Below are positions 16,608 to 35,180 of a stretch of DNA of 35,180 nt, piece by piece. The notes under the pieces were generated by a model that was not told the DNA's origin, did no database searches, and saw nothing but the letters and a program-made list of their open reading frames with translations. The translations under genes were made by a program, and so were the position numbers. The DNA is taken from positions 1-35,180 of the forward strand of contig JAHIOQ010000143.1 of assembly GCA_018895275.1 (NCBI GenBank). Direction: 5' to 3'. Source of the stretch: Candidatus Omnitrophota bacterium (GTDB lineage Bacteria > Omnitrophota > Gorgyraeia > B26-G9). Each line of letters begins with the position of its first letter. Position 1 is the first letter of the stretch.

Positions 16608-16852
16608 AATTTCCATCATTCTCTGTGTCTCTGTGTGAGCATAAAAAAAATTATAACGATGTGTTGCGGCCCGATTTGATTTGTTAAACAAGCATTATTT
16701 ACCCACTTGAAACTTACAGGAGTCGTTTAAACAAATTCTATTCTGCCAAAAATTTCTTTTCGATCTTGTGTGCATATTGTGATACAATATTTCCGTGCTT
16801 CTGTGGTTAAGTTTTGACATTACCCCTTAAAGGAATCTTTACGAAGGCGGAT

Positions 16853-17326
16853 ATGCGCAGTAAAATCATTTATCTGATGTTTTTGTTATGCCTGCTACCC
16901 CGGTATGCCTCAGCGGAAAATAATCCGGAGCTTATCGCGGAACTGAATAGGGTCTTTACCTTGGAAATCCAGTCTCTGCAGCAATGCGAGCATGACAGCG
17001 AGGTATTTAATGTGGCCATGCCTTTCCACCGGATTATTCTGGAAAAACAGGAAACCGTGAAATCTCTTGCAGATGTTATTGATGCCTTGAACGGAGATGC
17101 GGAGAAAAACCGTCTGCCGATCGTGAAAACTACTCAATTGGACAAGGCTTTGGTGATTGATGCCGAAGCTCAGATTGAAATTATAGACAGATATGATAAA
17201 TTGCTTGCCGCTTTCGGGTATCCGGAGGTGCGTCGGATAGTGGTTATTGCCCGCAGCCGGGCATTGCGGCATTTTATGCTGCTGACGAACATGGCACAGA
17301 AGATCGGCATAAAATGGACGGATTAA
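16853..17326 (+). CDS. Secreted/periplasmic ferritin-like (DUF2202-like) helical protein
   Basis: Signal peptide MRSKIIYLMFLLCLLPRYASA; FTLEIQSLQQCEHDSEVF...MPFHRIILEKQETVKSLADVIDALNG resembles the DUF2202 four-helix pattern. Confidence 0.5.
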   Translation: MRSKIIYLMFLLCLLPRYASAENNPELIAELNRVFTLEIQSLQQCEHDSEVFNVAMPFHRIILEKQETVKSLADVIDALNGDAEKNRLPIVKTTQLDKALVIDAEAQIEIIDRYDKLLAAFGYPEVRRIVVIARSRALRHFMLLTNMAQKIGIKWTD

Positions 17327-20663: not shown

Positions 20664-21410
20664 ATGAAACTACAGGATAAGGTTGCGGTGGTTACCGGAG
20701 GGACTCGCGGTATCGGCAGGGCCATGGTGGAGGCCCTCGCGCGGGAAGGAGCGCAGGTGCTTTTTACATATGCGCATAATGATTTATTAGCCGGGCAGAT
20801 AGAAAGTGAATTACGGGAACAGGGTTTAAAAGCTAAAGGTTTTAAGATAGACGTTAGAGATTTTGAAAAAATAAATCAATGGAAAGAAGAAATATTAATT
20901 GAGTTCGGCGGCGTTGATATTCTAATTAATAACGCCGGTATTGCAAAAGATAAAGCTCTGATGATGATGAGCCGGGAGGATTGGGACGAAGTCATAGACA
21001 CCAATCTGAACGGCCTTTTTAATTTTACGCGGGCTTTTATTGTGCATTTTTTGAAGAAAAAGGAAGGCAACATTATCAATATAAGTTCGGTTAGCGGGCT
21101 TATCGGGTTACCTCGCCAGGTGAATTATTCCGCTTCCAAAGGAGGGATGATTTCTTTCAGTAAAGCGCTTGCCAAAGAAGTCGCGCCTTATAATATCAGG
21201 GTTAACGTTATTTGCCCCGGGTTTATCGATACGGATATGACGAGAAAATTAAGAGAGGAATATGTGCGGCAGATGATGCCGCTTATTCCTTTGGGGAGGT
21301 TCGGTACCGTAGAAGAGGTAGCGCGGACAGCGCTTTTTTTGGCGGATGAGACGGTATCGCACTATATTACCGGCCAGGTAATACGCGTTGACGGCGGATT
21401 GACAATGTGA
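20664..21410 (+). CDS. fabG: 3-oxoacyl-ACP reductase (FabG-like SDR)
   Basis: VTGGTRGIGRAM; INNAGIAKD; YSASKGGMISFSKALAKE; NVICPGFIDTDMT; ITGQVIRVDGGLTM. Confidence 0.93.
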   Translation: MKLQDKVAVVTGGTRGIGRAMVEALAREGAQVLFTYAHNDLLAGQIESELREQGLKAKGFKIDVRDFEKINQWKEEILIEFGGVDILINNAGIAKDKALMMMSREDWDEVIDTNLNGLFNFTRAFIVHFLKKKEGNIINISSVSGLIGLPRQVNYSASKGGMISFSKALAKEVAPYNIRVNVICPGFIDTDMTRKLREEYVRQMMPLIPLGRFGTVEEVARTALFLADETVSHYITGQVIRVDGGLTM

Positions 21411-21426
21411 AAGGGGGAGGGAATCT

Positions 21427-21684
21427 ATGCCGGCAGAAAAGACTTTAGATACGCTCAGGCAGGAACTAAGAAAGATTGTTGCCGAAATCGGCGAGATTTC
21501 AGAAGAAGAAATTAAGGATGATGCTAACTTCATCGATGATTTAGGATTCGACAGTATGAAGGCGCTGGAAGTGGCGGCGGCGATCGAGAAAAAATATAAA
21601 ATACGTATATCGGAAGAAGAAATACCGAAAATAAATTCTTTGGTGAATGTGTTTAAGCTGCTGGAGAAATCTTTAAAAAACTAA
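21427..21684 (+). CDS. Acyl carrier protein
   Basis: DDANFIDDLGFDSMKALEVAAAIEKKYKIRISEEEIPKI; phosphopantetheine Ser in LGFDSMKAL. Confidence 0.95.
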   Translation: MPAEKTLDTLRQELRKIVAEIGEISEEEIKDDANFIDDLGFDSMKALEVAAAIEKKYKIRISEEEIPKINSLVNVFKLLEKSLKN

Positions 21685-21721
21685 TAAAACCGTCTTGTAA
21701 AATCGGTAGGCTCCCGGAAAT

Positions 21722-22324
21722 GTGCATATGTGGTATTGGGTACTTCGCGTATTAAGCAAGCTAATATTAAGAATATTTTTTAATTTTAAAGTTGCAGGCC
21801 TGGAAAACATACCCAAAAAAACTAATTTTATTGTGGCTGCCAATCATGTTAGTTTTCTGGACCCTTTTATTATTGGAGTTGCCATACCCAAAAGAATTAA
21901 TTGGCTGGCCTCAAGATTTTTTTATAGCTATGCATGGTTCAAGTGGTTTTTTCGTAAATTAGACGCTTTATCAACCGGAAATGTGTCGGAAAGGGCGGTT
22001 TTTCTGCTGGAAGCAAATAAGAATGTCGGTTTGTTTCCGGAGGGATGCCGCAGCCATGACGGAAGTCTTGGGGGGTTTAGAAGAGGCGCGGCACTTTTGG
22101 CCTTTAAAACCGGAAGGCCGGTTGTGCCTTGTGTCATTAAGGGGGCCTATGAGGTACTCCCGCGCGGGAAATTTTTCCCAAAGCTGTTTTTGCCTATAGA
22201 AGTTAAAATAGGCAAACCGATATATCTATTGAAAGAATTTGAAAAAAAAATTGATGATGTGTATTTACAAAAAGGCACGTCTAAGATTAAAAGCAGCATT
22301 GAGGAGATGTTAAATGCCGGATAA
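21722..22324 (+). CDS. 1-acyl-sn-glycerol-3-phosphate acyltransferase (PlsC-like)
   Basis: NHVSFLDP (HX4D), FPEGCRS, GRPVVPCVIKGAYEVLP. GTG start at 21722 or ATG at 21728. Confidence 0.92.
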   Translation: MHMWYWVLRVLSKLILRIFFNFKVAGLENIPKKTNFIVAANHVSFLDPFIIGVAIPKRINWLASRFFYSYAWFKWFFRKLDALSTGNVSERAVFLLEANKNVGLFPEGCRSHDGSLGGFRRGAALLAFKTGRPVVPCVIKGAYEVLPRGKFFPKLFLPIEVKIGKPIYLLKEFEKKIDDVYLQKGTSKIKSSIEEMLNAG

Positions 22325-23918
22325 AGATTTAATAGAGATAAGTGTCGAAAGAGTTATTCCTGCGGAAAAATGGAGGGTGGTACGTTTGCTTACAAAGGTA
22401 TGGGACTTTCCGTCCTTTGTGCCTTCCGTCAAGGAAGTATCGGTGATTCAAAAGTCTCATAATAAAATAAAGACGAGATGGCGGATACAAGTAGACAAAA
22501 TTCCGATATCCTGGATAGAGGAAGATGAGCTTGCCCTGAAGGATAATGCGATTTATTTCAACGCAGTAGAGGGAGACCTGCAGGAATTTAAGGGGGAATG
22601 GAGGTTCCGTACCCATGAGGGAGGGACTTTAGTAAGCGTGAAGGTTAACTTGAGAGTTGGGCTTCCGGTAATCGAGGAATTCGCGCAGGCCTATGTGAAA
22701 AATATGCTTACGAGTAATTTTGCCGCTATTTTGGAAGCATTGGAGCAGCGTTTAATATCAAAAAAATATGCAAGTTATAAACAGGGAGACACGAAAAAAA
22801 TAGCCGGATTCGGAATTCTCGGGCATTTTTACAATTTTAACCATCTCGCGCGGTGCTTAAAAATGATAAATCCGAACTACAAGCTTCCTTCGCGGGAATT
22901 CCTGCACGGATTATTCAGTATCACGCCTTCTTTTAAGATGTATGAAATGGAAAAATTTGTTTCTAAAACAAAGGATACCACGCACGGCTGTTTTATCGTG
23001 TGTACGTTTATACCCGATATGATGGCTCAGGACATGTACGCTGTTTATGCGAAAGTGGTGCGGGCCTGTAAGCTGGCGGAGAAACACGGCGTCGGCATTG
23101 TAACTCTCGGCGGATTTACTTCGATGGTAGGGGAGCGGCTGGGACACCGCATTGAAGAAGATGTGGATATCCCGATTACCACCGGCAATACCTATACGGC
23201 GGTGCTGGCGCTTGAAGCCGTGGAAAAGGCTGTACAGCTTTTCGGTAAGGAATTAAAAGACGTAAAAATAGCTGTAGTCGGCGGCACAGGCGATATCGGC
23301 AGCGCCTGCAGCCGTATATTGGCGGAAAAATCCAGGCAGGTGACGATAACCGGCAGGACTAAGTCTAACCTGCGTCTTCTTTCCGGCGAGCTTAAAAGAA
23401 AACGTGCGGCGAAGATTGAGGCGACTACCGATAATAGAAAGGCGGTAAAGGATGCGGATGTGGTTATTGCCGCGGCAAATTCTTCCGCGTCGATACTGGA
23501 TGCGGCGTGGTTTAAGCCCGGTGCCGTCATTTGTGACCTGGCTTATCCGAAAAATATTTCTTACGCGCCTATAAGCAGAAAAGATATTTTTGTATTTTCC
23601 GGAGGGCTGGCGAGTATTCCTACGCCGATAGATATGGGTATTGATTTGGGAGTTCCTTCTCCGGATATTTCCTACGGCTGTTTTTCCGAAGTAATTATTC
23701 TCGCGCTTGAACACCGTTTTGAAAATTTCAGCTACGGCCGGGGAAATATATCGGTGGAGAAAATGCAGGAAATAAAGAAGCTGGCGGTTAAACACGGTTT
23801 TGAATTAGCCCCGTTTTACTGGGCGGATAAGTTAATCGGGACGCAGGAAATAGAAGAAATCAAAAAGGCGGCAAAAAATGCCGGATCGGCTACTGGATTT
23901 TTCAAATTATCTTTATAA
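22314..23918 (+). CDS. Fusion: N-terminal SRPBCC (polyketide cyclase/COQ10-like) domain + C-terminal acyl-ACP reductase (AAR)-like domain
   Basis: N-terminal ~150 aa SRPBCC pattern (ISVERVIPAEKWRVVRLLTKVWDFPSFVPSVKEVSVI...). C-terminal FGILGHFYN...VTLGGFTSMV...TTGNTYTAVLALEAVEKA...VAVVGGTGDIGSAC...LAYPKNIS...GCFSEVIILALEHRFENFSYGRGNISVEKMQEIKKLAVKHGF closely parallels recalled cyanobacterial AAR. Confidence 0.85.
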   Translation: MPDKDLIEISVERVIPAEKWRVVRLLTKVWDFPSFVPSVKEVSVIQKSHNKIKTRWRIQVDKIPISWIEEDELALKDNAIYFNAVEGDLQEFKGEWRFRTHEGGTLVSVKVNLRVGLPVIEEFAQAYVKNMLTSNFAAILEALEQRLISKKYASYKQGDTKKIAGFGILGHFYNFNHLARCLKMINPNYKLPSREFLHGLFSITPSFKMYEMEKFVSKTKDTTHGCFIVCTFIPDMMAQDMYAVYAKVVRACKLAEKHGVGIVTLGGFTSMVGERLGHRIEEDVDIPITTGNTYTAVLALEAVEKAVQLFGKELKDVKIAVVGGTGDIGSACSRILAEKSRQVTITGRTKSNLRLLSGELKRKRAAKIEATTDNRKAVKDADVVIAAANSSASILDAAWFKPGAVICDLAYPKNISYAPISRKDIFVFSGGLASIPTPIDMGIDLGVPSPDISYGCFSEVIILALEHRFENFSYGRGNISVEKMQEIKKLAVKHGFELAPFYWADKLIGTQEIEEIKKAAKNAGSATGFFKLSL

Positions 23919-26073
23919 CCCGCATGCCATACCGGTAATATTGGTAGGCAGTATTATTTTTTGCATAGGGTTATTTATCCTTTTACAGTCAAAAAAGCAG
24001 GCAAGCGGTAAAGCGTTTTTTTTATTCTGCGTAAGCTTAAGCATCTGGCTGATAACAATAGGCTTTGTTTATTGCGCGAATAATCCTCGGACGGCGCTGC
24101 TATGGTATAAATATTTTACTTTTTTCGGCGTGGTTAACATTATGCCGAGCGGGTATTTATTCGTAGCGGCACTAACAGGCCTTTTACGGAAACAACGCGC
24201 TTTGGTGGCCGGCAATTATGTTATAGCGAATATTTTTTACGCGCTGGCGCTTGTCACGGAAAAATTTATTGCCTTGCCGCGGTGGTATTACTGGGGGTAC
24301 TATCCGCGATATGAACGGCTGAATATTCTATTCATCGTTTTTTACTTAACATTGTATGTCGCGCTTCAGATTATTTTATGGCGCAGGTATAAATCGGAAA
24401 AAATACCGATCAAACGCACCCGGCTCTTAGCGATATTTATCGGCTTTCTGGTTGCTTTTATTGCTTCTGTTGATTTTACGCCTAAATTTTTTACCGTAGC
24501 GGTATATCCCTTCGGCTTTATCCCCATGCTTATTTTTGTCTGTATTCTGGCATATTCGATCATCCATTATAAAGCGTTCGATATCGAAACCGTCATTCAT
24601 AAAACGGCGGCATGGGTATTGGCATCTTCAACCTGCCTTATTCCGATAGCTTTGCTTGTCTATTGGTTAAGGCCATGGTATCAAAAAGCTTCTCCTTTTG
24701 AAGTATCCCTGCTTTGCGCGGGCATATTCTACCTGTTGACGATTTATGTCCAATGCACACAGCCCAAGATTGACCATTTTTTTCAAAGGCGAAAAGCGGA
24801 CCTGGAAGAGACATTGGATAAATTCAGTGAAGATTTAGTTTATTTGAAAGGGTTGAATAACCTTATCCGGCGCATAGAACAGACGATTGCCGATACTTTA
24901 TATCCGCAGTATATCGCGATTTTTATACATAACAAGGAAAGGAACGGTTATGTGCGAATTAATAATATTTCCGAAGGCGAGGATATAACAGCGGATTTTC
25001 TGGAAGAAAATAACCAATTCTTGTCGTGGCTTGCTAAAAGCGGTAAGATTGTATATAAGGAATTCGTGAATATCGACCCGCAGTATACTTTGATAGAAAA
25101 AGAGGCAAATGATTATTTCAATTTAACCGATGCGATGCTGGCTATTCCATTGGTTTTGAATGTGAACATGCTGGGCATAATCAATCTGGGAAAAAAAGCA
25201 AATTTCAAAAAATACCGTGCTTCGGATTTGTATTTTTTAAATAAATTGAAAAACGAGTCGGTTATCGCGATATCAAACTCTTTACTTTACGAAAATATGG
25301 AAGAACAGGTAAAGGAGCGCACGAAACAGTTGGTGAAGGTGCAGAAACAGCTGGTACAGGCGGAAAAGCTGGCAACCGTGGGAACATTGGCCGGCGGCGT
25401 TGCGCATGAGATAAACAATCCGTTAATGGCGATTCTGACCAACGTGCAGATGCTTCTGGCTTCCGATTCGATTCGTGACGAATCGGACCGGGAATCTCTT
25501 CAACTGATAGAAGAAGCGACAAAACGGGGCCGTGATGTCGTGCAGAAATTAATGGTTTATGCCCGCAAACCTTTAGAATCCAGGGAAGCCGGGAGAATAG
25601 ATTTATTAAAGGTGGTAAAAAATGTGGTCGCGTTTATCGGGTATCAGTTGGCGCAGGAAAATGTCAGGGTAAATATTCATGCAAATGGCCGTAACGGATA
25701 TATGGTAATCGGTACCAAGAACGAGTTTGAGCAGGTTGTAACAAACATAATTTTGAATGCCAAAGACGCGGTTAAGCGTTTTAAAAAAAACGGAGTTGTG
25801 GATGTTTTTCTTGATCATGACGGCGAATGGGTGAGGCTTATGGTTAAGGATGAGGGCGAGGGAATGACGCCGGAAATTAAAGCAAAGATATTCGACCCTT
25901 TTTTTACGACTAAAGATGTGGGCAAAGGCCTGGGACTGGGACTGTCCATCTGCCAGTCGGTAATTGAACGGCATAACGGCGTTATAAAGGTTGATTCCAG
26001 CCCTGATCAAGGGGCGGTATTTACGATTTGCCTGCCGACGGCCGCGATGATAAAAAGCGCCGTGTCGGGCTAA
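23878..26073 (+). CDS. Membrane sensor histidine kinase (multi-TM N-terminal region, GAF-like, HisKA/HATPase)
   Basis: Multiple N-terminal TM helices; GTLAGGVAHEINNPLMAILTN H-box; NIILNAKDAV N-box; DEGEGMTPEIKAKIFDPFFTTKDVGKGLGLGLSICQSV. Overlaps preceding gene by 41 bp. Confidence 0.93.
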   Translation: MPDRLLDFSNYLYNPHAIPVILVGSIIFCIGLFILLQSKKQASGKAFFLFCVSLSIWLITIGFVYCANNPRTALLWYKYFTFFGVVNIMPSGYLFVAALTGLLRKQRALVAGNYVIANIFYALALVTEKFIALPRWYYWGYYPRYERLNILFIVFYLTLYVALQIILWRRYKSEKIPIKRTRLLAIFIGFLVAFIASVDFTPKFFTVAVYPFGFIPMLIFVCILAYSIIHYKAFDIETVIHKTAAWVLASSTCLIPIALLVYWLRPWYQKASPFEVSLLCAGIFYLLTIYVQCTQPKIDHFFQRRKADLEETLDKFSEDLVYLKGLNNLIRRIEQTIADTLYPQYIAIFIHNKERNGYVRINNISEGEDITADFLEENNQFLSWLAKSGKIVYKEFVNIDPQYTLIEKEANDYFNLTDAMLAIPLVLNVNMLGIINLGKKANFKKYRASDLYFLNKLKNESVIAISNSLLYENMEEQVKERTKQLVKVQKQLVQAEKLATVGTLAGGVAHEINNPLMAILTNVQMLLASDSIRDESDRESLQLIEEATKRGRDVVQKLMVYARKPLESREAGRIDLLKVVKNVVAFIGYQLAQENVRVNIHANGRNGYMVIGTKNEFEQVVTNIILNAKDAVKRFKKNGVVDVFLDHDGEWVRLMVKDEGEGMTPEIKAKIFDPFFTTKDVGKGLGLGLSICQSVIERHNGVIKVDSSPDQGAVFTICLPTAAMIKSAVSG

Positions 26074-26102
26074 TGTTGTGTAATATTACAGGGAGTAACT
26101 AA

Positions 26103-26525
26103 ATGAAGAAGCATATTTTAATTATCGACGATGAGGTTTTGGTGGTTAAAACATTGCGTAAATTATTAAGTAGCGAAGGTTATGCGGTGACGGTCGCGCA
26201 GAGCGGGCAGGAAGCGCTTGAAAAAGTAAAGTGCGGGGAATTTAATCTGATTGTCTGCGACATGAGAATGCCGCAGATGGACGGGGTGGATACGATCAAA
26301 GAAATCCGTGAATACCTGAAAAAACAGGGGAAGCCTCCTGTGCCGGAAATTTTTATTACCGGTTACGCGGATGAGCAGAAGTACAAAAGCGCCGTGGAGT
26401 TGAAAGTGGCGGATTATATATATAAGCCGTTTGAACGGGAAGAATTTCTGGAAGTGGTAAAAAAGAATCTGGACCCAAAGGACGAAAGACGATATGACAG
26501 GTTGCGGGCTGCAAGAAGAGAGTAG
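26103..26525 (+). CDS. Single-domain response regulator
   Basis: IIDDEVLVVKTLRKLL...LIVCDMRMPQMDGVDTI...IFITGYAD...DYIYKPF. Confidence 0.93.
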   Translation: MKKHILIIDDEVLVVKTLRKLLSSEGYAVTVAQSGQEALEKVKCGEFNLIVCDMRMPQMDGVDTIKEIREYLKKQGKPPVPEIFITGYADEQKYKSAVELKVADYIYKPFEREEFLEVVKKNLDPKDERRYDRLRAARRE

Positions 26526-26652
26526 AAAGAATGTTCTCGCTACTTGCCTGTCCTTTGCAGCTTTCTTGACCCTCGAAGCCTTCATGCTCAATTCGAAAGG
26601 CCGGCGAAGTGGGTAGCGAAGGAGGGTTGTTTGCTACTTTTTTTAAGGTGAT

Positions 26653-27888
26653 ATGAAAAACGAACTAAGGATTGTCATAACCGGTATCGGCGTGATCGCG
26701 CCGAACGGCATCGGTAAGGATGCCTTCTGGCAGGCGCTGCAGGAAGGCATCTCCGGTATAAGACCAATATTGTCTATCGACACCACCTATTTTAAAAGCA
26801 AATTGGCCGCGGAATGCGCTGATTTCAATGCCGCGGAATTCCTGGGAGCCAAGGGATTGAGGAATCTTGACCGCGCTACTTTACTTGTTACCTCGGCGGC
26901 AAAACTGGCTTTGGATGATGCCGGATTGGAAATCAGCGAGGCGAATACGGATGATATCGGCGTAGCTACGGCAACGACGTTATCCGTTGCGGTTGATATT
27001 GCCGCTTTTACCAAAGAAGTTGTCGATGATGGGGCACAGATGGTCAATCCGGCGTTGTTTCCGCCGACAACAATGAATTTCCCTTCAAGCCATATCGCGA
27101 TCAGGTACAAGATAAAAGGGTTTAACTCAACCATATCCACCGGATATACCGCGGGCTTAGACGCGCTTAAGTACGCGATGGACTTAATAAAGGCAGGCAG
27201 GGCCAGAGCGGCTTTGGTCGCCGGGGTGGAAAGCTTTTCATTTGCCAATTTTGTCGGATTTTATAAGGCCGGATTTCTTTCCGGCAGGCGCGGTGAGGAG
27301 CTTTGCTGCCCTTTTGATAACCGGCGCAACGGTATTATCCTGGGCGAGGCAGCCACGGTTATTGTCGTGGAGGATGAGGAATTTGCCCGGCAGAGGCAGG
27401 CGCGCATCTACGCGCGTGTGCTGGGAGTAAAGAGTTTTTTTGACGCGTACCGCAGCGCGGATTATGCCCCTAAGTCAAGGGGGTTAAAACAAAGCATGGT
27501 GAAGGTGCTGGAAGAAGCGCGCTTAAGCGAGGAAGATATCGACTATATTTGCAGCGCGGCAAATTCGGTAAAACAGCAGGATAAATTGGAAACCGAGGCG
27601 ATAAAGGAGGTGTTCAATATCTACGCGGAGCAGATTCCCGTAAGTTCGATAAAGTCTATGGTCGGTGAAAGCATCAGCGCCGCGGGATGCCTGCAGATTG
27701 CCGCTTCCGTGGCCGCCATAACCAAAGGCTTTATCCCTCCGACAATTAATTATGAGGTGCCGGACCCGGAGTGTGATTTGGATTACGTGCCGAACGTCTC
27801 CAGAAAAGCGGATGTTAAAAATGTCCTGATAAACAATTTCGGCCCCGGCGGCAATAATGCCGCGGCGGTGATAAGCAGATATGAGTAG
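26653..27888 (+). CDS. Ketosynthase-fold protein lacking the catalytic triad (KS-beta/chain-length-factor-like)
   Basis: KAS fold along its length (VITGIGVIAPNGIGKDAFWQALQEG...). Ungapped alignment to the adjacent KS shows Cys->Tyr (STGYTAG), His->Ala (YICSAANS), His->Glu (SMVGESIS). Confidence 0.87.
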   Translation: MKNELRIVITGIGVIAPNGIGKDAFWQALQEGISGIRPILSIDTTYFKSKLAAECADFNAAEFLGAKGLRNLDRATLLVTSAAKLALDDAGLEISEANTDDIGVATATTLSVAVDIAAFTKEVVDDGAQMVNPALFPPTTMNFPSSHIAIRYKIKGFNSTISTGYTAGLDALKYAMDLIKAGRARAALVAGVESFSFANFVGFYKAGFLSGRRGEELCCPFDNRRNGIILGEAATVIVVEDEEFARQRQARIYARVLGVKSFFDAYRSADYAPKSRGLKQSMVKVLEEARLSEEDIDYICSAANSVKQQDKLETEAIKEVFNIYAEQIPVSSIKSMVGESISAAGCLQIAASVAAITKGFIPPTINYEVPDPECDLDYVPNVSRKADVKNVLINNFGPGGNNAAAVISRYE

Positions 27889-27901
27889 AGTAGTGAGAAA
27901 A

Positions 27902-27948
27902 AGTAGGCAGTAGGGAGTAAGTAAGGAGTAAGGAGTAAGGAGTAAGGC
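27902..27948 (+). repeat. Short tandem repeat, 7-bp unit GTAAGGA
   Basis: GTAAGGA GTAAGGA GTAAGGA GTAAGGC at 27921-27948 with degenerate units (gtaggcagtagggagtaa) upstream. Confidence 0.9.
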
Positions 27949-27974
27949 AGCTACTCGCTACTATTAAGAGGTGT

Positions 27975-29198
27975 ATGATGAAAGATCGTCGCGTTGTCGT
28001 TACGGGTATCGGCGTGGTTTCATCCGTGGGCATTGGCAGGGATGCTTTCTGGAATAGTATTGTTAATGGCGCCTGCGGGCTCAGCGAAGTGAGTGCGTTT
28101 GATACTTCGGGGTTTACCTGCCATCGCGGCGGAGAGGTAAAAAATTTCCTGCCGGGAGAATTCATGCCGAAACACAAGATAAAGTTTTTGAGCCGAACTT
28201 CGCAGTTGGCGATTGCCGCGTCGGCACTTGCTTTAAAAGATGCCGGCGTTCCCATAGAAAAGATATCCGGAGACAAACTCGGGGTTATTATCGGCACAAC
28301 CCTTGGTGAAACATATATAGAGGACTTAGCCGCGGCATGGGCAAGGGGCGGCTTAAAAGACGTACAGCGCAGGAAACTTTTTCAGGCCTCGGTAAATAAC
28401 ATATCGGCAAATGTCGGCATCCAGTTTAAGGCCATGGGGGTAAATTACCTTATCCCCAATGCCTGCGCCGCGGGTAATTATGCCATAGGCTATGCCTTTG
28501 ACCTGATTAAAAACGGGGATTTGAATTTTGTCCTGGCCGGCGGCAGCGAGGCGTTTTCATGTTTAGCCTTTGCCGGTTTTCAGCGGCTTTACGCGATGTC
28601 TCCGGATAAGTGCGCGCCTTTTGATAAAAACAGAAAGGGCATGATGCTGGGCGAAGGCTCCGGCATCCTATTAATCGAGTCCCTGGAATCAGCGCGCAAG
28701 CGGGGCGCGAATGTTTACGCGGAGATTTTAGGGTACGGGTTGTCGTGTGATGCCTATCATGCTACGGCTACGGAGCCGGAAGGCATAGCCAAGGTAATGC
28801 GAAAGGCGTTAAAGGACGCGGCTATAGACAGGGAGGAAGTGGATTATATCTGCGCGCACGGCACAGGCACGCCTATGAATGATAAGACCGAATCAAAGGC
28901 AATTAACGAGGTCTTTGGAAAAAGGCAGGGGCTGATGGTGAGCTCGCTGAAATCCATGCTCGGCCATACCATGGGCGCGTCCTCGGCAATCGCCTCGGCA
29001 GCCTGCTGCCTGGCGATAAAAGACGGCATCGTGCCTCCGACGATAAATTTTGAAACCCCGGATCCGGAATGTGATATCGACTGCGTAGCGAATATAGCCA
29101 GAAAAATAAAGATAAACATCGCGCTGAACAACGGCTTTGCCTTTGGCGGGAATAACTGCAGCGTGGTGTTTAGCAAGGCAAATCTTGAAATATCTTGA
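27975..29198 (+). CDS. Beta-ketoacyl-ACP synthase II-like (KS-alpha), catalytic triad intact
   Basis: NACAAGNYAIGYA (Cys codon 28464-28466), YICAHGTGTPMND (His), SMLGHTMGASS (His). Confidence 0.93.
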   Translation: MMKDRRVVVTGIGVVSSVGIGRDAFWNSIVNGACGLSEVSAFDTSGFTCHRGGEVKNFLPGEFMPKHKIKFLSRTSQLAIAASALALKDAGVPIEKISGDKLGVIIGTTLGETYIEDLAAAWARGGLKDVQRRKLFQASVNNISANVGIQFKAMGVNYLIPNACAAGNYAIGYAFDLIKNGDLNFVLAGGSEAFSCLAFAGFQRLYAMSPDKCAPFDKNRKGMMLGEGSGILLIESLESARKRGANVYAEILGYGLSCDAYHATATEPEGIAKVMRKALKDAAIDREEVDYICAHGTGTPMNDKTESKAINEVFGKRQGLMVSSLKSMLGHTMGASSAIASAACCLAIKDGIVPPTINFETPDPECDIDCVANIARKIKINIALNNGFAFGGNNCSVVFSKANLEIS

Positions 29199-29223
29199 CT
29201 TTAATCAAGGATTGGCTTAAAAT
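29195..29223 (+). promoter_or_regulatory. Sigma70-type promoter for the DUF4143 ATPase gene
   Basis: TTGACT (29195-29200), 17-bp spacer, TAAAAT (29218-29223). Confidence 0.6.
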
Positions 29224-29225
29224 TA

Positions 29226-29239
29226 CTCATTATAATGAG
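29226..29239 (+). promoter_or_regulatory. 14-bp perfect palindrome immediately downstream of the predicted -10
   Basis: CTCATTATAATGAG overlaps the expected transcription start. Confidence 0.45.
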
Positions 29240-29267
29240 ATAATTTTAAAATTCAGCATATCTAATT

Positions 29268-30452
29268 ATGTATAAAAGAGATATAGTAAATACAATCAAT
29301 CACAGACTTGAAGAAAAGAGACGTTTTATTCAGGTAATCATGGGCCCGCGTCAAGTGGGTAAAACTACGGCTATTCAACAAATCATTAAAGAAAAAACTA
29401 TTCCCTGCCATTATGCCGCCGCGGATTTGCCGGCGCCTCCGGATACAGAATGGATTTCTCGCCAATGGGATTTAGCCAGAATGAAAATGGAAGGCCGGCA
29501 AAAAGGTATCTTAGTTCTCGATGAAGTCCAAAAGATTGCTCACTGGTCTAATGAGGTGAAACGGTTGTGGGATGAGGATACGAGGTTGGGTAGTAATCTT
29601 CATGTTGTAGTTTTGGGGTCGTCGTCTTTACTTATTCAAAAAGGGCTGGAAGAAAGCCTTGCCGGCAGGTTTGAGATTATAAGATTTCCTCATTGGTCAT
29701 GGCTGGAGTGCCGCGATTGCTTTAATTGGACATTGGATAAATATATTTATTTTGGAGGATATCCGGGAGCGGCAGATTTAATAGAAGAAGAGGACCGTTG
29801 GAGCCGGTATATTCGTGATTCATTGATAGAAACGGCCATTTCTAAAGATATTCTTTTATTAAACAGGGTGGAGAAGCCTGCTTTATTAAGACAATTATTT
29901 GTCTTATCCTGCGATTATGGGGGGCAGATTCTTTCTTATCAGAAGATAATGGGACAATTGACTGATAGCGGTAACACAACTACGCTTGCGCATTATCAGA
30001 GACTGCTGGAATCCGCTTTTTTAATTCGCGGATTACCTAAATGGTCGGGTAATCTTGTACGCCGGCGGAATTCAAGCCCTAAATGGCTTCCTTTAAATAC
30101 GGCATTGATGAGCGCGTTAGCTAACCGTAGTTTTAAAGAATGTAGGAGTGCTGCTGAAAGCTGGGGGCGGTTGGTAGAGGTATCTGTAGGCGCGCATCTG
30201 GTTAACAGCGGGATATCTCATGGGATTGATATTTATTATTGGCGAGAGGGAAATAAAGAGGTTGATTTTGTGATTCGCAAGGGTAATAAAATTACGGCTA
30301 TTGAAGTTAAAAGCGGAAGGAAACGCGGTTCTTTGCCGGGTATTAGTAAATTTTTAACACATTATTCTACTGCGCGAAGCGTAGTTGTCGGAAGCCAGGA
30401 ATTGAGCCTGCGGGAATTTTTGGAAACGCCGTTATCTAAATGGGTTGAGTAA
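29268..30452 (+). CDS. AAA+ ATPase with DUF4143 domain
   Basis: VIMGPRQVGKTTAIQQII (Walker A), ILVLDEVQKI (Walker B), LGSSSLLIQKGLEESLAGRFE, YYWREGNKEVDFVIRKGNKITAIEVKSGRK (nuclease-like C-terminus). Confidence 0.92.
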   Translation: MYKRDIVNTINHRLEEKRRFIQVIMGPRQVGKTTAIQQIIKEKTIPCHYAAADLPAPPDTEWISRQWDLARMKMEGRQKGILVLDEVQKIAHWSNEVKRLWDEDTRLGSNLHVVVLGSSSLLIQKGLEESLAGRFEIIRFPHWSWLECRDCFNWTLDKYIYFGGYPGAADLIEEEDRWSRYIRDSLIETAISKDILLLNRVEKPALLRQLFVLSCDYGGQILSYQKIMGQLTDSGNTTTLAHYQRLLESAFLIRGLPKWSGNLVRRRNSSPKWLPLNTALMSALANRSFKECRSAAESWGRLVEVSVGAHLVNSGISHGIDIYYWREGNKEVDFVIRKGNKITAIEVKSGRKRGSLPGISKFLTHYSTARSVVVGSQELSLREFLETPLSKWVE

Positions 30453-30466
30453 AGGATGGATTATTA

Positions 30467-30916
30467 ATGAATGACAAAGATAAAGTTATCATTACAAAGT
30501 TACGCGGGTTTTTAAAAGAAATGGCATCTGAGTATCCTATTGAAATAGTTTTTCTTTATGGCTCTTTTGCTTCGGTTTATCATCATGCCGGGTCGGATAT
30601 CGATATCGGTATATTTTTCTCCGAATCTGTTGAAAAAGCGGAAAAGGCACACTTTTTTATTACAGAGATCACATATAAATTAATTCAAGAATTTAGCAGG
30701 GAAGTAAATATCATTTCCATAGACAGGAATTTTTTACATCCGATGCTTTATTATAACGTGATAATTTCAGGTATCCCGCTATTTATAAAAGATGACGGTA
30801 AGTTTTTGAGTTTAAAATTAGAAGCAATTCACCAGATGGAAGATTTTCAGCTTTTTGCTCCTTTTTGGCAGAGAACGGTCACTAAAAAAATTATGAAAGG
30901 AGTATCGTATGGCTGA
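30467..30916 (+). CDS. MntA-like nucleotidyltransferase antitoxin
   Basis: FLYGSFASVYHHAGSDIDIGIFF minimal nucleotidyltransferase motif; 8-bp overlap with downstream HEPN gene. Confidence 0.88.
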   Translation: MNDKDKVIITKLRGFLKEMASEYPIEIVFLYGSFASVYHHAGSDIDIGIFFSESVEKAEKAHFFITEITYKLIQEFSREVNIISIDRNFLHPMLYYNVIISGIPLFIKDDGKFLSLKLEAIHQMEDFQLFAPFWQRTVTKKIMKGVSYG

Positions 30917-31340
30917 CTTTAAATACGCGAAGGGCAGAATTACTGAGTCACTGCAATTTATTGCCGTTGAAATGAGGGAGTTTGACCAGGATTATGCTTT
31001 AAAACGATGGGAAGATTACCATGACGATAGAAAACTGCAGAAATTGATTGACCGGACTGTGGAAAATATTCTTACCGCTCTTGTTGAAGTCTGCGGCACA
31101 ATTTTAACCCAGGAAGAAATTGCTGTTGAAAGTTATGCGCAGGTTTTAAGCGAATGTGCCGGAAGATTAGGTTTTTCTAAAGAAGAACAGGAAAATTTAG
31201 CAAAACTGGCTATTCAGAGAAATCGCTTAGCGCATCGTTACTTAAATTTTCGCTGGCAGGCAATTAGTATGTTTAAAGAATATCGGCCCGTAATTACAAA
31301 GCTTTTAGAGAAAATTTTAGAGAGAGAGGAGAAAATGTAG
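30909..31340 (+). CDS. HepT-like HEPN toxin
   Basis: QRNRLAHRYLNF carries the Rx4HxY HEPN motif; paired with the MntA-like gene. Confidence 0.88.
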   Translation: MADFKYAKGRITESLQFIAVEMREFDQDYALKRWEDYHDDRKLQKLIDRTVENILTALVEVCGTILTQEEIAVESYAQVLSECAGRLGFSKEEQENLAKLAIQRNRLAHRYLNFRWQAISMFKEYRPVITKLLEKILEREEKM

Positions 31341-31390
31341 ACATGGAATACTTGGATAATTTCTACAAGCGCTATATGAACTACATGTGA
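31331..31390 (+). repeat. Short derivative of the GxxExxY-associated element (copy A)
   Basis: GAAAATGTAGACATGGAATACTTGGATAATTTCTACAAGCGCTATATGAACTACATGTGA aligns without gaps to copy D with about 4 mismatches. The left end is truncated and the hepT stop TAG lies inside it. Confidence 0.8.
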
Positions 31391-31548
31391 AATAAAAGCG
31401 TTAAAGCCGCAATTAGCGGCAGATGGAATATGCGGCATAAGCGGTTAGGCAAAGAGGTGAAGAAAATAGTTTTTAGTTTTGCGGGTTGGCCCTTGCTATT
31501 CTTTAACGTTAATGATTGCTTTGCCCAACGGAGGTGAGATTTGTAATA

Positions 31549-32643
31549 ATGAAGGATAAGATAACGAAAACATGTAAGCAGTGCGGGTTGCCGAACACTT
31601 ATCCGGGGATTAAATTTGATAAAGACAATACTTGTAATTATTGTGTTTATTTCGAACTTAATAAAAATAGGGAAAAACTCTCCAGAATGAGGATGAAAAA
31701 AGAATTTGTTAATGTTGTCAATGCCGCCAAATCACGGAAAAATAAATATGACTGTGTTGTGGCTTACAGCGGCGGTAAGGACAGTTCTTTTCTGCTTTAT
31801 TTTTTAAAAAGAAGGTTTAATCTAAAAATCCTGGCGCATACGTTTGATAATGGCTTTGTTTCGGAAACAGCCCAGAAAAACATAAAACAGGTTACAAAGG
31901 TTTTGGGGATAGATCATCAGACAACGCGTCCGGGGTTTGACTTCTTACAGGGCCTTTTTATTAGTGCTTTAAAGGAAGAATTTGTGTTTCCTAAAGAGAT
32001 TCTGGCGATGATGAGCCCGGTGTGCGCGGCTTGTTTAGGCATGGTTTTCGGCAGCACCATTAATCGGGCGATAAGATTAAGAATACCGGTAATGTTTATC
32101 GGTTTTACCCCCGGTCAGTATCCGGCGATTAGTTTAGAGAACTTTTTTAAGGTAAAATCATGCGTATATCTTTCCGATAAGGTTTACCGCGATGACCCCT
32201 GGGATGTGCTGAAAATAATCTCCGACCCGATAAGAGAAAAATTCGGGAGACAGGCTAGCCGATATTTTTTTAAAAGCCAATATGTCGCGAAACGGGCATT
32301 TATACCGAAAGTGTTATTTCCCTTTCATGTCTTACTGGATTATGATGAAAAGAAAATTATTGAGGCAATTTCCAAAATAGGATGGGTTAAGCCTAAAGAT
32401 ACGGATTCCTGTTCAACTAATTGCCTGCTGAATAGTTTGGGAAATTTTTGTTTTGCTAAAAAATACGGATATCATCCTTATGCCGGAGAACTTGCCTATT
32501 TGGCAAGAACGGGCAAATTAAACCGCAAACAGGTATTAGCGGCCGTAAAAATAGAGGATGATTCTTTTGCCCTGAAACATTCCTTGCGGAAGCTGAATAT
32601 TAAATGCGATGATGTATTAAAAACAGAGAGCTGCCTAAAATGA
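31549..32643 (+). CDS. PP-loop ATP-dependent amidotransferase-like protein (N-acetyl sugar amidotransferase/WbpG-like)
   Basis: CKQCGLPNTYPGIKFDKDNTCNYC and VVAYSGGKDSSFLLYFLKRRF; GGAGGTGA RBS upstream of ATG 31549. The ORF-track TTG start at 31516 is less likely. Confidence 0.75.
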   Translation: MKDKITKTCKQCGLPNTYPGIKFDKDNTCNYCVYFELNKNREKLSRMRMKKEFVNVVNAAKSRKNKYDCVVAYSGGKDSSFLLYFLKRRFNLKILAHTFDNGFVSETAQKNIKQVTKVLGIDHQTTRPGFDFLQGLFISALKEEFVFPKEILAMMSPVCAACLGMVFGSTINRAIRLRIPVMFIGFTPGQYPAISLENFFKVKSCVYLSDKVYRDDPWDVLKIISDPIREKFGRQASRYFFKSQYVAKRAFIPKVLFPFHVLLDYDEKKIIEAISKIGWVKPKDTDSCSTNCLLNSLGNFCFAKKYGYHPYAGELAYLARTGKLNRKQVLAAVKIEDDSFALKHSLRKLNIKCDDVLKTESCLK

Positions 32644-34229
32644 AAGAAAATATTTATTTGCCCTCTTCGCTTAAAAATTTTGAGAAAATAGTTATCGGCA
32701 GCCTGCGTTTGTTGTCTGATATTGATGAGTCTAATGTTTATTCGGCGTATTCACTGATACCGTTGATTTCTCAAATTCTGGGGGTTAATACGCCGTTAAT
32801 GGGCACAGGCGATTCTCCTTATTCGCTTGTGTCCGCAGTTTTTCAAATGAGAAAGAAGCAGTCCCTGTTTGATGGTTTGTTTAAAATCAGCCTTGAAGAA
32901 AGAAGAAAAGTAATAGATGAAATGTATGAAATGGTTGCGCCTTGCCTGCTGGAAGAGGAGGGTGAGTATATAGAGCTTCTCTTAAATACCAAATATAAGT
33001 ATCTGTTAAAAAATAATAAAAAGAATCTGATAAAAGAAAAAAAGGTTTTAGAAGATAAGTTTTCTCTTCTTGCCCCGGTGGTCGAAAAAAACAGAAGCAG
33101 CCAGGGGGATTTTGCCCATATGATCCATTACGGTTATCCGGCTGATTTGTATCGGGAATTTTCTTTTTTGGAAAAAATGCCGAAAGCGTTGGTTAAACAG
33201 TGGCGGGATTATTCTTATCCCGTAGTCAATGAATTTATTATCAGAAATTTTCCTGTCAAAAATAAAAAGGCAAAAACGGCGATTAAAGGATGGGTTTTGT
33301 TTGTTACAAATCATACCAGAGAGCTTCTTGAAAGCGGGAGCTTGAGGAAAAGAAAAATATTGCAGGCCGCGAAACTCGCGCGCCGGATGGGAGCAAGGAT
33401 TGTGGGGATGGGGGGACTGATTGCTTCTTTTGCCCAGGGCGGGCATTGGCTGTCCGAACAGATTCCGGATATGGGTTTTACTACCGGGCATGCTTATACC
33501 ATAGGCAATATCATGGAGATTCTGGATAATGCCGCAGGGAGAGTAAACCTGGATATTAGAAAAGCAACGGTTGCGATTGTCGGTGCCGCGGGCTCTATCG
33601 GCTCGGGCTGCGCAAAATTATTGGCGGATAGAAAGCCCGGCCGTATAATATTAATAGATTTAAATACATTTGATGCTTTAAGAAAATTGGAAGAGGTAAA
33701 AAATTATATTAAAAATGTATGTCCAGATATCAATGTGCTATTATCTATTAATCTTAGAAAATTAAAAAAAGCAGACGTTGTTATTGTCGCAACAAATTCC
33801 GTGGCTTCGATTATAAAAAAAGAACATTTAAAACAAGGGGCAATTGTTATTGACGACTCCTTTCCGAAAAATGTTTCCGAAAGGATCCTCAGGGAAAGAA
33901 AAGATATTATTCTGTTGGAAGGGGGCATGACGCGGCTTCCATCTTCTATCGAGGTCCTGGCCGCCCGGAATATGCCGGATTTGATGGATATCCCTTTAAC
34001 CCGGCTGGTTAGCTGCAAGGAAACTTACAGCTGTGTGGCGGAAACGCTGACCTTGGGATTGTATGGATATAAAAAAAATTACGGATTAGGCCAATCCGAC
34101 CCGGCGCTGGCAAAGGATATTATGACTAAAGCCCGGCAGAGAGGTTTTAACTCCGCTCCGCTGCAATGCTTTGACGAGGCGGTGGAAGAAGAGAGGTTCG
34201 AATGCGTAAGAAAACTGGTGAAGCAATAA
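32640..34229 (+). CDS. Second acyl-ACP reductase-like dehydrogenase (divergent), with unrecognised N-terminal region
   Basis: ATGA overlap with previous gene; [14 protein letters not shown]...[17 protein letters not shown]...[14 protein letters not shown]...DDSFPKN...LEGGMT...[23 protein letters not shown]; same motif order as the C-terminal half of 22314..23918. Confidence 0.72.
34191..34226 (+). repeat. Left copy of 36-bp duplication (end of AAR-like gene)
   Basis: GAGAGGTTCGAATGCGTAAGAAAACTGGTGAAGCAA; 33/36 identical to 34826-34861. Confidence 0.95.
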
Positions 34230-34237
34230 AAAATATC

Positions 34238-34668
34238 CACATGTAGCCCCTGTAGGAAATGTAGATATGGAATACTCAAAATTGGCGGATCAAATTATAG
34301 GCTACGCAATAGAAGTCCATCGGATACTGGGGCCGGGGCTGTTGGAATCAACATACGAACAATGTTTAGCTCAAGAACTTCGTCTTAATAAGATTAATTT
34401 TAACACACAACTGGCTTTACCTGTTACCTATAAAGGCATTAGATTAGATTGCGGCTACCGTATTGATATGCTTATTGAGAATGAAATTATTCTAGAAATA
34501 AAAAGTGTGGAAGAGATTCAAGGCATACATCAGGCGCAGGTACTTACTTATATGAAATTGGCTAACATTAAACATGGCTTTATTGTGAATTTTAATGTTA
34601 AATATCTTAAGGAAGGGCTAAAAAGTTTTATCCTGTGATTTCTACAGGTACTATATGAACTACATGTA
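34238..34668 (+). mobile_element. Repeat-bounded element carrying the GxxExxY gene (copy B, candidate full-length form)
   Basis: CACATGTAG at 34238-34246 and inverted CTACATGTa at 34660-34668. The 44-bp left block (34233-34276) recurs at 34731-34774, and the right block recurs in copies A and D. Confidence 0.6.
34267..34638 (+). CDS. GxxExxY family protein
   Basis: [46 protein letters not shown]...[18 protein letters not shown]...[19 protein letters not shown]. Confidence 0.93.
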
Positions 34669-34735
34669 AAATAAATATTCTAAGTTTTTATTATCTCCGG
34701 GAAATATGGAATTAAAAAAAACGATAAGAAATATC

Positions 34736-34811
34736 CACATGTAGCCCCTGTAGAAAATGTAGACATGTGATACTTGAATAATTTCTATAAGCGCTATATG
34801 AACTACATGTG
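34736..34811 (+). repeat. 76-bp MITE-like derivative (copy D) with perfect 9-bp terminal inverted repeats
   Basis: CACATGTAG (34736-34744) ... CTACATGTG (34803-34811). Left half matches the left end of copy B and right half its right end, without the GxxExxY gene. Confidence 0.85.
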
Positions 34812-34825
34812 AAACAGGGAAATAC

Positions 34826-34861
34826 GAGAGGTTCGAATGCGTAAGAAAACCGGTAAAACAA
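34826..34861 (+). repeat. Right copy of 36-bp duplication (RBS and start of nitroreductase gene)
   Basis: GAGAGGTTCGAATGCGTAAGAAAACCGGTAAAACAA; 33/36 identical to 34191-34226. Confidence 0.95.
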
Positions 34862-35180
34862 CGGCGAAAAAAGTAGATTTATTAAAGCTTATAAAAAACC
34901 GCAGAACAATACGAAAATACCAGGACAGGCCTATTTCTAAGAGAATATTGAATAAGATTATTGAGGCGGGTGTGTGGGGACCGTCTGTTCATGGAATACA
35001 GCCGTGGCAGTTTTTGGTGATAAATAATGCGAGTTTCATCAAAGAAGTAGCTAAAATTCTTTTGAGAAGATCCATGGAAAAAGAGATAGCCGGAAGGATT
35101 CTACTTGATTCTACAGCGAATACTATTAATAACGCACCTCTATTAATAGCGGTTTATAACAATAAAGAGGTTGTTAAATT
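34837..35180 (+). CDS. Nitroreductase family protein, 3'-truncated by window edge
   Basis: MRKKTGKTTAKKVDLLKLIKNRRTIRKYQDRPISKRILNKIIEAGVWGPSVHGIQPWQFLVINN...NNAPLLIAVYNN; absent from the ORF track because it runs off the window. Confidence 0.9.
   Translation, partial: MRKKTGKTTAKKVDLLKLIKNRRTIRKYQDRPISKRILNKIIEAGVWGPSVHGIQPWQFLVINNASFIKEVAKILLRRSMEKEIAGRILLDSTANTINNAPLLIAVYNNKEVVK

Follow-up and report, generated by a model that had tools for sequence, protein, structure and literature searches.

What do the genes at positions 20664 to 29198 of a contig from Candidatus Omnitrophota bacterium build, and how does their product leave its carrier protein? The stretch analysed (contig JAHIOQ010000143.1 of assembly GCA_018895275.1, 35,180 nucleotides; hereafter the window) carries eight open reading frames (ORFs) here, all on the + strand and set apart by short gaps or overlaps. 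A preliminary description made from the sequence alone had proposed eight co-directional genes and named their families; the ORF coordinates together with Pfam and NCBIfam profile scans bear this out. The set includes a dedicated acyl carrier protein (ACP), two ketosynthase (KS) proteins and a fusion of an SRPBCC domain to an acyl-ACP reductase (AAR) domain:

20664..21410, + strand: FabG-type 3-oxoacyl-ACP reductase (TIGR01830, 302 bits, curated cut-off 297.75; adh_short_C2/FabG, 223 bits)
21427..21684, + strand: dedicated ACP (PF00550, PP-binding, 50 bits; phosphopantetheine Ser in LGFDSMKAL)
21722..22324, + strand: PlsC-type acyltransferase (PF01553, Acyltransferase, 74 bits; HX4D and FPEG motifs read in the translation)
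22314..23918, + strand: SRPBCC-AAR fusion (SRPBCC at about residues 1-150, AAR domain at about 166-520; Polyketide_cyc and Shikimate_DH; TIGR04058 AAR, 167 bits)
23878..26073, + strand: sensor histidine kinase with an N-terminal seven-transmembrane (7TM) region (PF16927, PF00512, PF02518; 7TM-HisKA-HATPase)
26103..26525, + strand: receiver-only response regulator (PF00072, Response_reg, 99 bits)
26653..27888, + strand: KSbeta, a ketosynthase fold with Tyr, Ala and Glu in place of Cys/His/His and the Lys kept (ketoacyl-synt; alignments and tree; model pLDDT 90)
27975..29198, + strand: KSalpha, a ketosynthase with intact Cys-His-Lys-His (ketoacyl-synt; 52% identity to 9s5h_B)

On balance, sequence comparisons tip in favour of a dedicated type II fatty-acid/polyketide-like pathway, a member of the ladderane-type type II fatty acid synthase (FASII) family with a reductive exit, which would build a probably unsaturated acyl-ACP and release it as an aldehyde.

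The family assignment is carried by the KS pair. KSalpha, which starts about 86 bp downstream of KSbeta, retains the full Cys-His-Lys-His set, whereas KSbeta lacks the Cys and both His, in keeping with the active and inactive subunits first proposed. The same division holds among Omnitrophota relatives: the four residues are intact in all 49 KSalpha sequences, and the Cys and both His are lost in all 73 aligned KSbeta sequences, in which Asn300 and Lys328 are invariant and position 333 is Glu (68) or Asp (five). The alignments thus mark the active-site loss as fixed and old, which excludes a sequencing error. Position 163, that of the Cys, is Phe in 50 of the 73, Tyr in 15 and Met in five, with others rarer and Gln in one. 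Actinorhodin-type chain-length factors (CLFs) have Gln at the position of the Cys; window KSbeta has Tyr163, followed by Ala298, Asn300, Lys328, Glu333, Gln342 and Pro at 392. It therefore shares the traits of the ladderane-type non-canonical FabF, namely replacement of Cys163, His298 and His333, the last by Glu, retention of Lys328, and pairing with an intact FabF in one locus. Rattray et al. (2009; PMC2649909) give a table of active-site positions in the FabF paralogues of anammox bacteria, and the Omnitrophota KSbeta signature resembles that of Kuste2805 in this table (Phe163, Asn298, Asn300, Lys328, Glu333, Gln342; PMC2649909).

Structural relatives point in the same direction. In a PDB sequence search a single entry, 9s5h, supplies the closest chains for both proteins: chain B for KSalpha (456 bits, next chain 335; 52% identity) and chain C for KSbeta (350 bits, next chain 275; 43% identity), with the act CLF at 139 bits for KSbeta and the ketosynthase of the ishigamide KS/CLF as the second-best match of KSalpha (42% identity). 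The entry was not among the best 50 matches listed in a fold search with KSbeta, and a literature search found no paper on it. Its chain C carries Val163, Asn298, Tyr300, Gly302, Lys328, Glu333, Gln342 and Arg392, identical at all eight diagnostic positions to Kuste3606, a published ladderane candidate (Table 2 of Rattray et al., 2009; PMC2649909), and the ACP of 9s5i, which with 7qv0_D and 7auf_A makes up the top three PDB matches of the window ACP (as chain 9s5i_E), carries the consecutive-Phe motif reported for AmxACP3 (PMC9821293). On these grounds, and not from the PDB title, we infer that 9s5h and 9s5i represent an anammox KS pair with its ACP. Window KSbeta differs from 9s5h_C in having Tyr (Phe in most relatives) instead of Val at 163, Asn instead of Tyr at 300 and Pro instead of Arg at 392. 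A tree built from 146 KS sequences puts 9s5h_C within the clade of KSbeta proteins (support 100) and makes 9s5h_B the sister of the KSalpha clade (support 88), so that the window sequences group with the putative anammox pair, its identity residue-based, apart from housekeeping FabF. We regard membership of the window pair in the ladderane-type FASII family as highly probable. The pair is thus no orphan, which changes the first reading, and genome mining had already turned up ‘ladderane’ clusters in Omnitrophota and in further phyla outside the anammox bacteria (PMC9902471).

KSbeta is present in 92 of 384 sampled Omnitrophota genomes (E up to 1e-95). We read the neighbourhoods of 75 KSbeta loci, seeking KSalpha within 9.5 kb and counting neighbour genes with purpose-built hidden Markov models (HMMs), because single-sequence phmmer labels undercounted ACPs. 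KSalpha accompanies KSbeta in 51 of the 75, most commonly in the order KSbeta-FabG-ACP-FabZ-KSalpha, and these paired loci contain an ACP (45), FabG (41), FabZ (40), a CrtI-like oxidoreductase (27) and an AAR or thioester reductase (28). Where at least 7 kb of downstream sequence is available, the reductase is found in 21 of 30 paired loci; it occurs in one of the 24 loci lacking KSalpha. Radical-SAM genes are merely scattered near KSbeta loci. Two variants stand out: in L080, L083, L087, L138, L157, L170 and similar loci, KSbeta-FabG-FabZ lies inside a riboflavin-biosynthesis operon, with the inactive-KS signature kept and no KSalpha nearby; and in L092 (12206-15138) KSbeta-KSalpha-CrtI is followed by a protein whose sequence suggests a radical-SAM enzyme of the B12-binding kind; of all arrangements seen, this one comes closest to a ladderane cluster.

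Could the window genes be the organism's ordinary fatty acid synthesis? The assembly, a metagenome-assembled genome of 2.56 Mb in 163 contigs and 88.7% complete, holds four KS, one of them on contig C7 within a fabG-acp-fabF locus distinct from the window, whose FabG is 47% identical to that of the window. As the C7 KS has an acp and a fabG of its own alongside, the window genes come in addition to this set, and the tree places both the C7 FabF and the lone KS of contig C112 away from window KSalpha and KSbeta; the housekeeping interpretation is rejected. The preliminary description had staked its proposal on synteny in relatives and on these KS proteins and ACP not being the genome's only FabF and AcpP. 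With the neighbourhood conserved at 51 loci and the genes distinct from the housekeeping set, it survives on both counts, and its core idea, that a KS/CLF-like pair serves a dedicated pathway on an ACP which ends in reductive release, gains support from the sequence data.

The putative release enzyme is the SRPBCC-AAR fusion. In alignments with cyanobacterial AAR, its Cys456 corresponds to the catalytic Cys294 and its GGTGDIGS to the nucleotide-binding motif, and both are conserved; among NCBIfam models, the AAR domain scores highest against the reductase domain of prodigiosin PigE (180 bits). In an AlphaFold model of the fusion (pLDDT 86), the C-terminal part matches the AAR structures 6jzy and 6jzu, while the N-terminal SRPBCC part is nearest to TTHA0849 (2d4r; TMt 0.93, 24% identity), ahead of the polyketide aromatase/cyclases TcmN and ZhuI (TMt 0.72-0.83, 13-17% identity). 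The ‘cyclase-like’ role first given to this domain is not supported, and we set aside a reading as polyketide cyclase; because TTHA0849 is closer in fold, the model makes binding of a hydrophobic chain more likely than cyclisation. A cyanobacterial AAR/ADO alkane pathway is likewise rejected, there being no match to aldehyde-deformylating oxygenase (ADO, PF11266) in the 88.7% complete assembly.

Several observations weigh against the pathway as proposed. The AAR domain, at 167 bits, falls well below the equivalog cut-off of 449.7 for TIGR04058; the origin of 9s5h is deduced from residue matching; and an AAR or thioester reductase was not found in 23 of the 51 paired loci. As the preliminary description had noted of the dehydratase, FabZ is missing from the window cluster, two copies lying elsewhere in the genome, and no CrtI-like protein was found in the window or the assembly, so that this genome's version of the cluster is reduced or incomplete. 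Scans of the cluster, which used no model dedicated to enoyl reductases, recognised no enzyme of this type. Further, the fusion is encoded without KSbeta in 50 sampled genomes, and hence need not act on the cluster ACP. This last point is also the mainstay of the best-surviving rival explanation, in which PlsC, the fusion and the two-component system handle ordinary acyl-ACP, for example to provide aldehyde or alcohol for ether lipids, and are neighbours unrelated to the KSalpha/KSbeta product. The fusion is usually preceded by PlsC and followed by the histidine kinase and response regulator, an arrangement kept at 55-69% identity in related genomes, many of them lacking the KS pair (as in L030, L032, L067 and L068), and the fusion recurs at about 41-48% identity in genomes outside the window's class. 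Across the sampled genomes there is no overall association between KSbeta and the fusion (odds ratio 0.73, p 0.42). Against this, 12 of the 14 genomes in the window's KSbeta subclade, across six families, encode the fusion and none of the 78 other KSbeta genomes does (p 2.5e-13, uncorrected for phylogeny); in L129, L132 and L134, PlsC, the fusion, the histidine kinase and the KS pair adjoin in this order on one contig, the last two loci having the response regulator as well; and FabG-ACP lies directly upstream of PlsC-AAR in the window and in G011. Moreover, a plain AAR or a thioester reductase adjoins KSalpha in many other clusters, and its presence in the same slot supports reductive release as a general exit. 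We judge the unrelated-neighbour explanation rather improbable. The fusion, usually with PlsC and the two-component system, is an independent module recruited to the window's KS subclade, and from the subclade-bound association and the shared contigs we read the window as a hybrid that joins a KS cluster of ladderane type to a phylum-wide module that would form aldehydes.

The surroundings of this module vary. Directly after AAR-HK in L029 (13769-15379; HK, histidine kinase) lies an in-frame fusion of a response-regulator receiver domain with a FabF-type ketosynthase, and an ACP comes next. Methyltransferase-like proteins follow AAR-HK in L030 (14115-15476, with an N-terminal PilZ domain) and L029 (15611-16966, with no Pfam match). 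GMC-type oxidoreductases lie directly after the fusion at L129:13902-15173, L034:5969-6898 and L136:332-1618, at least two of them with a Cys-rich stretch. Near the fusion at L032:14737-16635, a methyltransferase domain is joined to a nitronate-monooxygenase/FabK-like domain, and an aldehyde dehydrogenase follows.

Returning to the dedicated pathway with reductive release, the family assignments, catalytic residues, KS subclass, co-occurrence and synteny given above suggest the following course. KSalpha and the CLF-like KSbeta would, as a heterodimer, elongate a chain on the cluster ACP, with FabG reducing each beta-keto group and dehydration left to a FabZ encoded elsewhere in the genome, a function provided in-cluster in most relatives. 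The chain would probably keep some double bonds, as no enoyl reductase was recognised among the cluster genes. The AAR domain would take the acyl chain from the ACP onto Cys456 and reduce it with NAD(P)H to the aldehyde, the SRPBCC domain would bind the hydrophobic chain, PlsC would incorporate the product or a side product into glycerolipid of the membrane, and the operon would be under the control of the membrane-bound kinase and the response regulator. One of the two genomic FabZ copies (L146:727-1263, contig C63) sits in a locus that reads as lipopolysaccharide-type. By sequence affinity, the product is probably an undescribed relative of ladderane lipids. We tentatively suggest that the Omnitrophota KS pair, working without ring-forming enzymes, might yield an undescribed polyunsaturated aldehyde, alcohol or ether-type membrane lipid, with the fusion passing the ACP-bound chain on for insertion into the membrane by way of PlsC.

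It is unlikely that the cluster makes a signalling lipid, aldehyde or ester, for the neighbouring membrane histidine kinase to sense, in the manner of quorum sensing by fatty-acid derivatives. In most relatives AAR is indeed followed by a 7TM histidine kinase and response regulator, and L029, L030 and L078 have methyltransferase genes close by, some of which include a PilZ domain; but the comparisons showed no homology to PhcB or any other known synthase, these genomes commonly encode histidine kinases, and an eight-gene lipid operon would be costly for a signal. PhcB-type quorum sensing specifically was rejected, as no family matched and the plasmid records gave no helpful annotation. Very unlikely, finally, is a true ladderane-like or polycyclic lipid with rings formed by enzymes encoded elsewhere: the KS pair is of ladderane type, relatives have ACP, FabZ, KSalpha, KSbeta and CrtI in common with the ladderane candidate genes kuste3603-3608, and L092 has its radical-SAM-like gene after KSalpha and CrtI, but the window ORFs from 20664 to 35180 include no radical-SAM enzyme, the scattered ones lie only near other loci, the window ACP lacks the Phe-Phe motif of AmxACP, and Desulfotalea, with a similar cluster, has C31:8 and C31:9 polyunsaturated hydrocarbons and no detected ladderanes (PMC2649909).

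How far does the cluster extend? The eight genes first delimited stand, and the co-directional run probably continues to the contig end at 35180:

29268..30452, + strand: ATPase gene between KSalpha and the downstream genes, a hitch-hiker probably outside the pathway (G011, L079, likewise has an ATPase gene after KSalpha)
30467..31340, + strand: MNT nucleotidyltransferase and HEPN-like pair, a hitch-hiker as read from the translations (comparable pair after KSalpha in G011, L079)
31549..32643, + strand: PP-loop ATPase like the N-acetyl sugar amidotransferase WbuX (TIGR03573, 142 bits, below the cut-off of 203; same position after KSalpha in L154), a probable extension
32640..34229, + strand: AAR2, a second divergent AAR-like reductase (a 57% identical relative adjoins KSalpha in G253, L154), a probable extension
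34837..35180, + strand: nitroreductase-like protein truncated by the contig end (150 bits with the HMM of cluster nitroreductases), a probable extension

The trio of WbuX-type, AAR-like and nitroreductase genes also follows KSalpha in G253 (L154), from another family, and because of this recurrence the three probably belong to the cluster. Upstream, ORF 16814-17326 encodes a 170-residue, probably secreted protein with apparent relatives, judged by eye, just upstream of fabG in G002 (L078_12 and L078_13); synteny may therefore extend upstream in this family.

Ladderane biosynthesis is unsolved, with the role of the inactive FabF paralogue a central open point. The Omnitrophota offer a natural comparison, in that they possess the KS pair, ACP, FabG, FabZ and often CrtI, together with a visible release enzyme and no conserved radical-SAM gene. 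Their clusters thus separate chain building from ring building, the first part being testable in E. coli, and give concrete content to the ‘ladderane’ clusters mined in non-anammox phyla. Among known systems, kuste3603-3608 of Kuenenia stuttgartiensis comprise an ACP, FabZ, FabF, a non-canonical FabF, a phytoene-desaturase-like protein and a radical-SAM enzyme (PMC4790861). With these the window has in common an ACP, an active FabF and a non-canonical FabF with Cys/His/His replaced and Lys and Glu kept, and the cluster of its Omnitrophota relatives five of the six gene types, FabZ and CrtI-like included, the radical-SAM gene being the exception. The window departs from them in lacking the radical-SAM gene and in having AAR, FabG, PlsC and a two-component system; its ACP reads NFIDDLGFDS where 7auf_A has NFFQDL and 9s5i_E NFFKDL, so that the radical-SAM enzyme, the CrtI-like desaturase and the consecutive-Phe ACP of the anammox ladderane cluster proper are all absent. 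The ishigamide KS/CLF (6kxd-6kxf), of a highly reducing type II polyketide synthase, likewise joins an active KS to an inactive partner, with accessory genes unlike those of the window. Cyanobacterial AAR (6jzq, 6jzu, 6jzy, 6jzz) shares fold and catalytic Cys with the window AAR, which differs in its N-terminal SRPBCC domain, its score below the equivalog cut-off and the lack of an ADO partner; compared with PigE, the window protein is without the aminotransferase domain. A literature search found no report of AAR, thioester reductase or SRPBCC-AAR coupled to a ladderane-type cluster in Omnitrophota. The KS family and the mined ‘ladderane’ clusters were already known; what is new here is a reductive-release variant of the ladderane-type FASII family.

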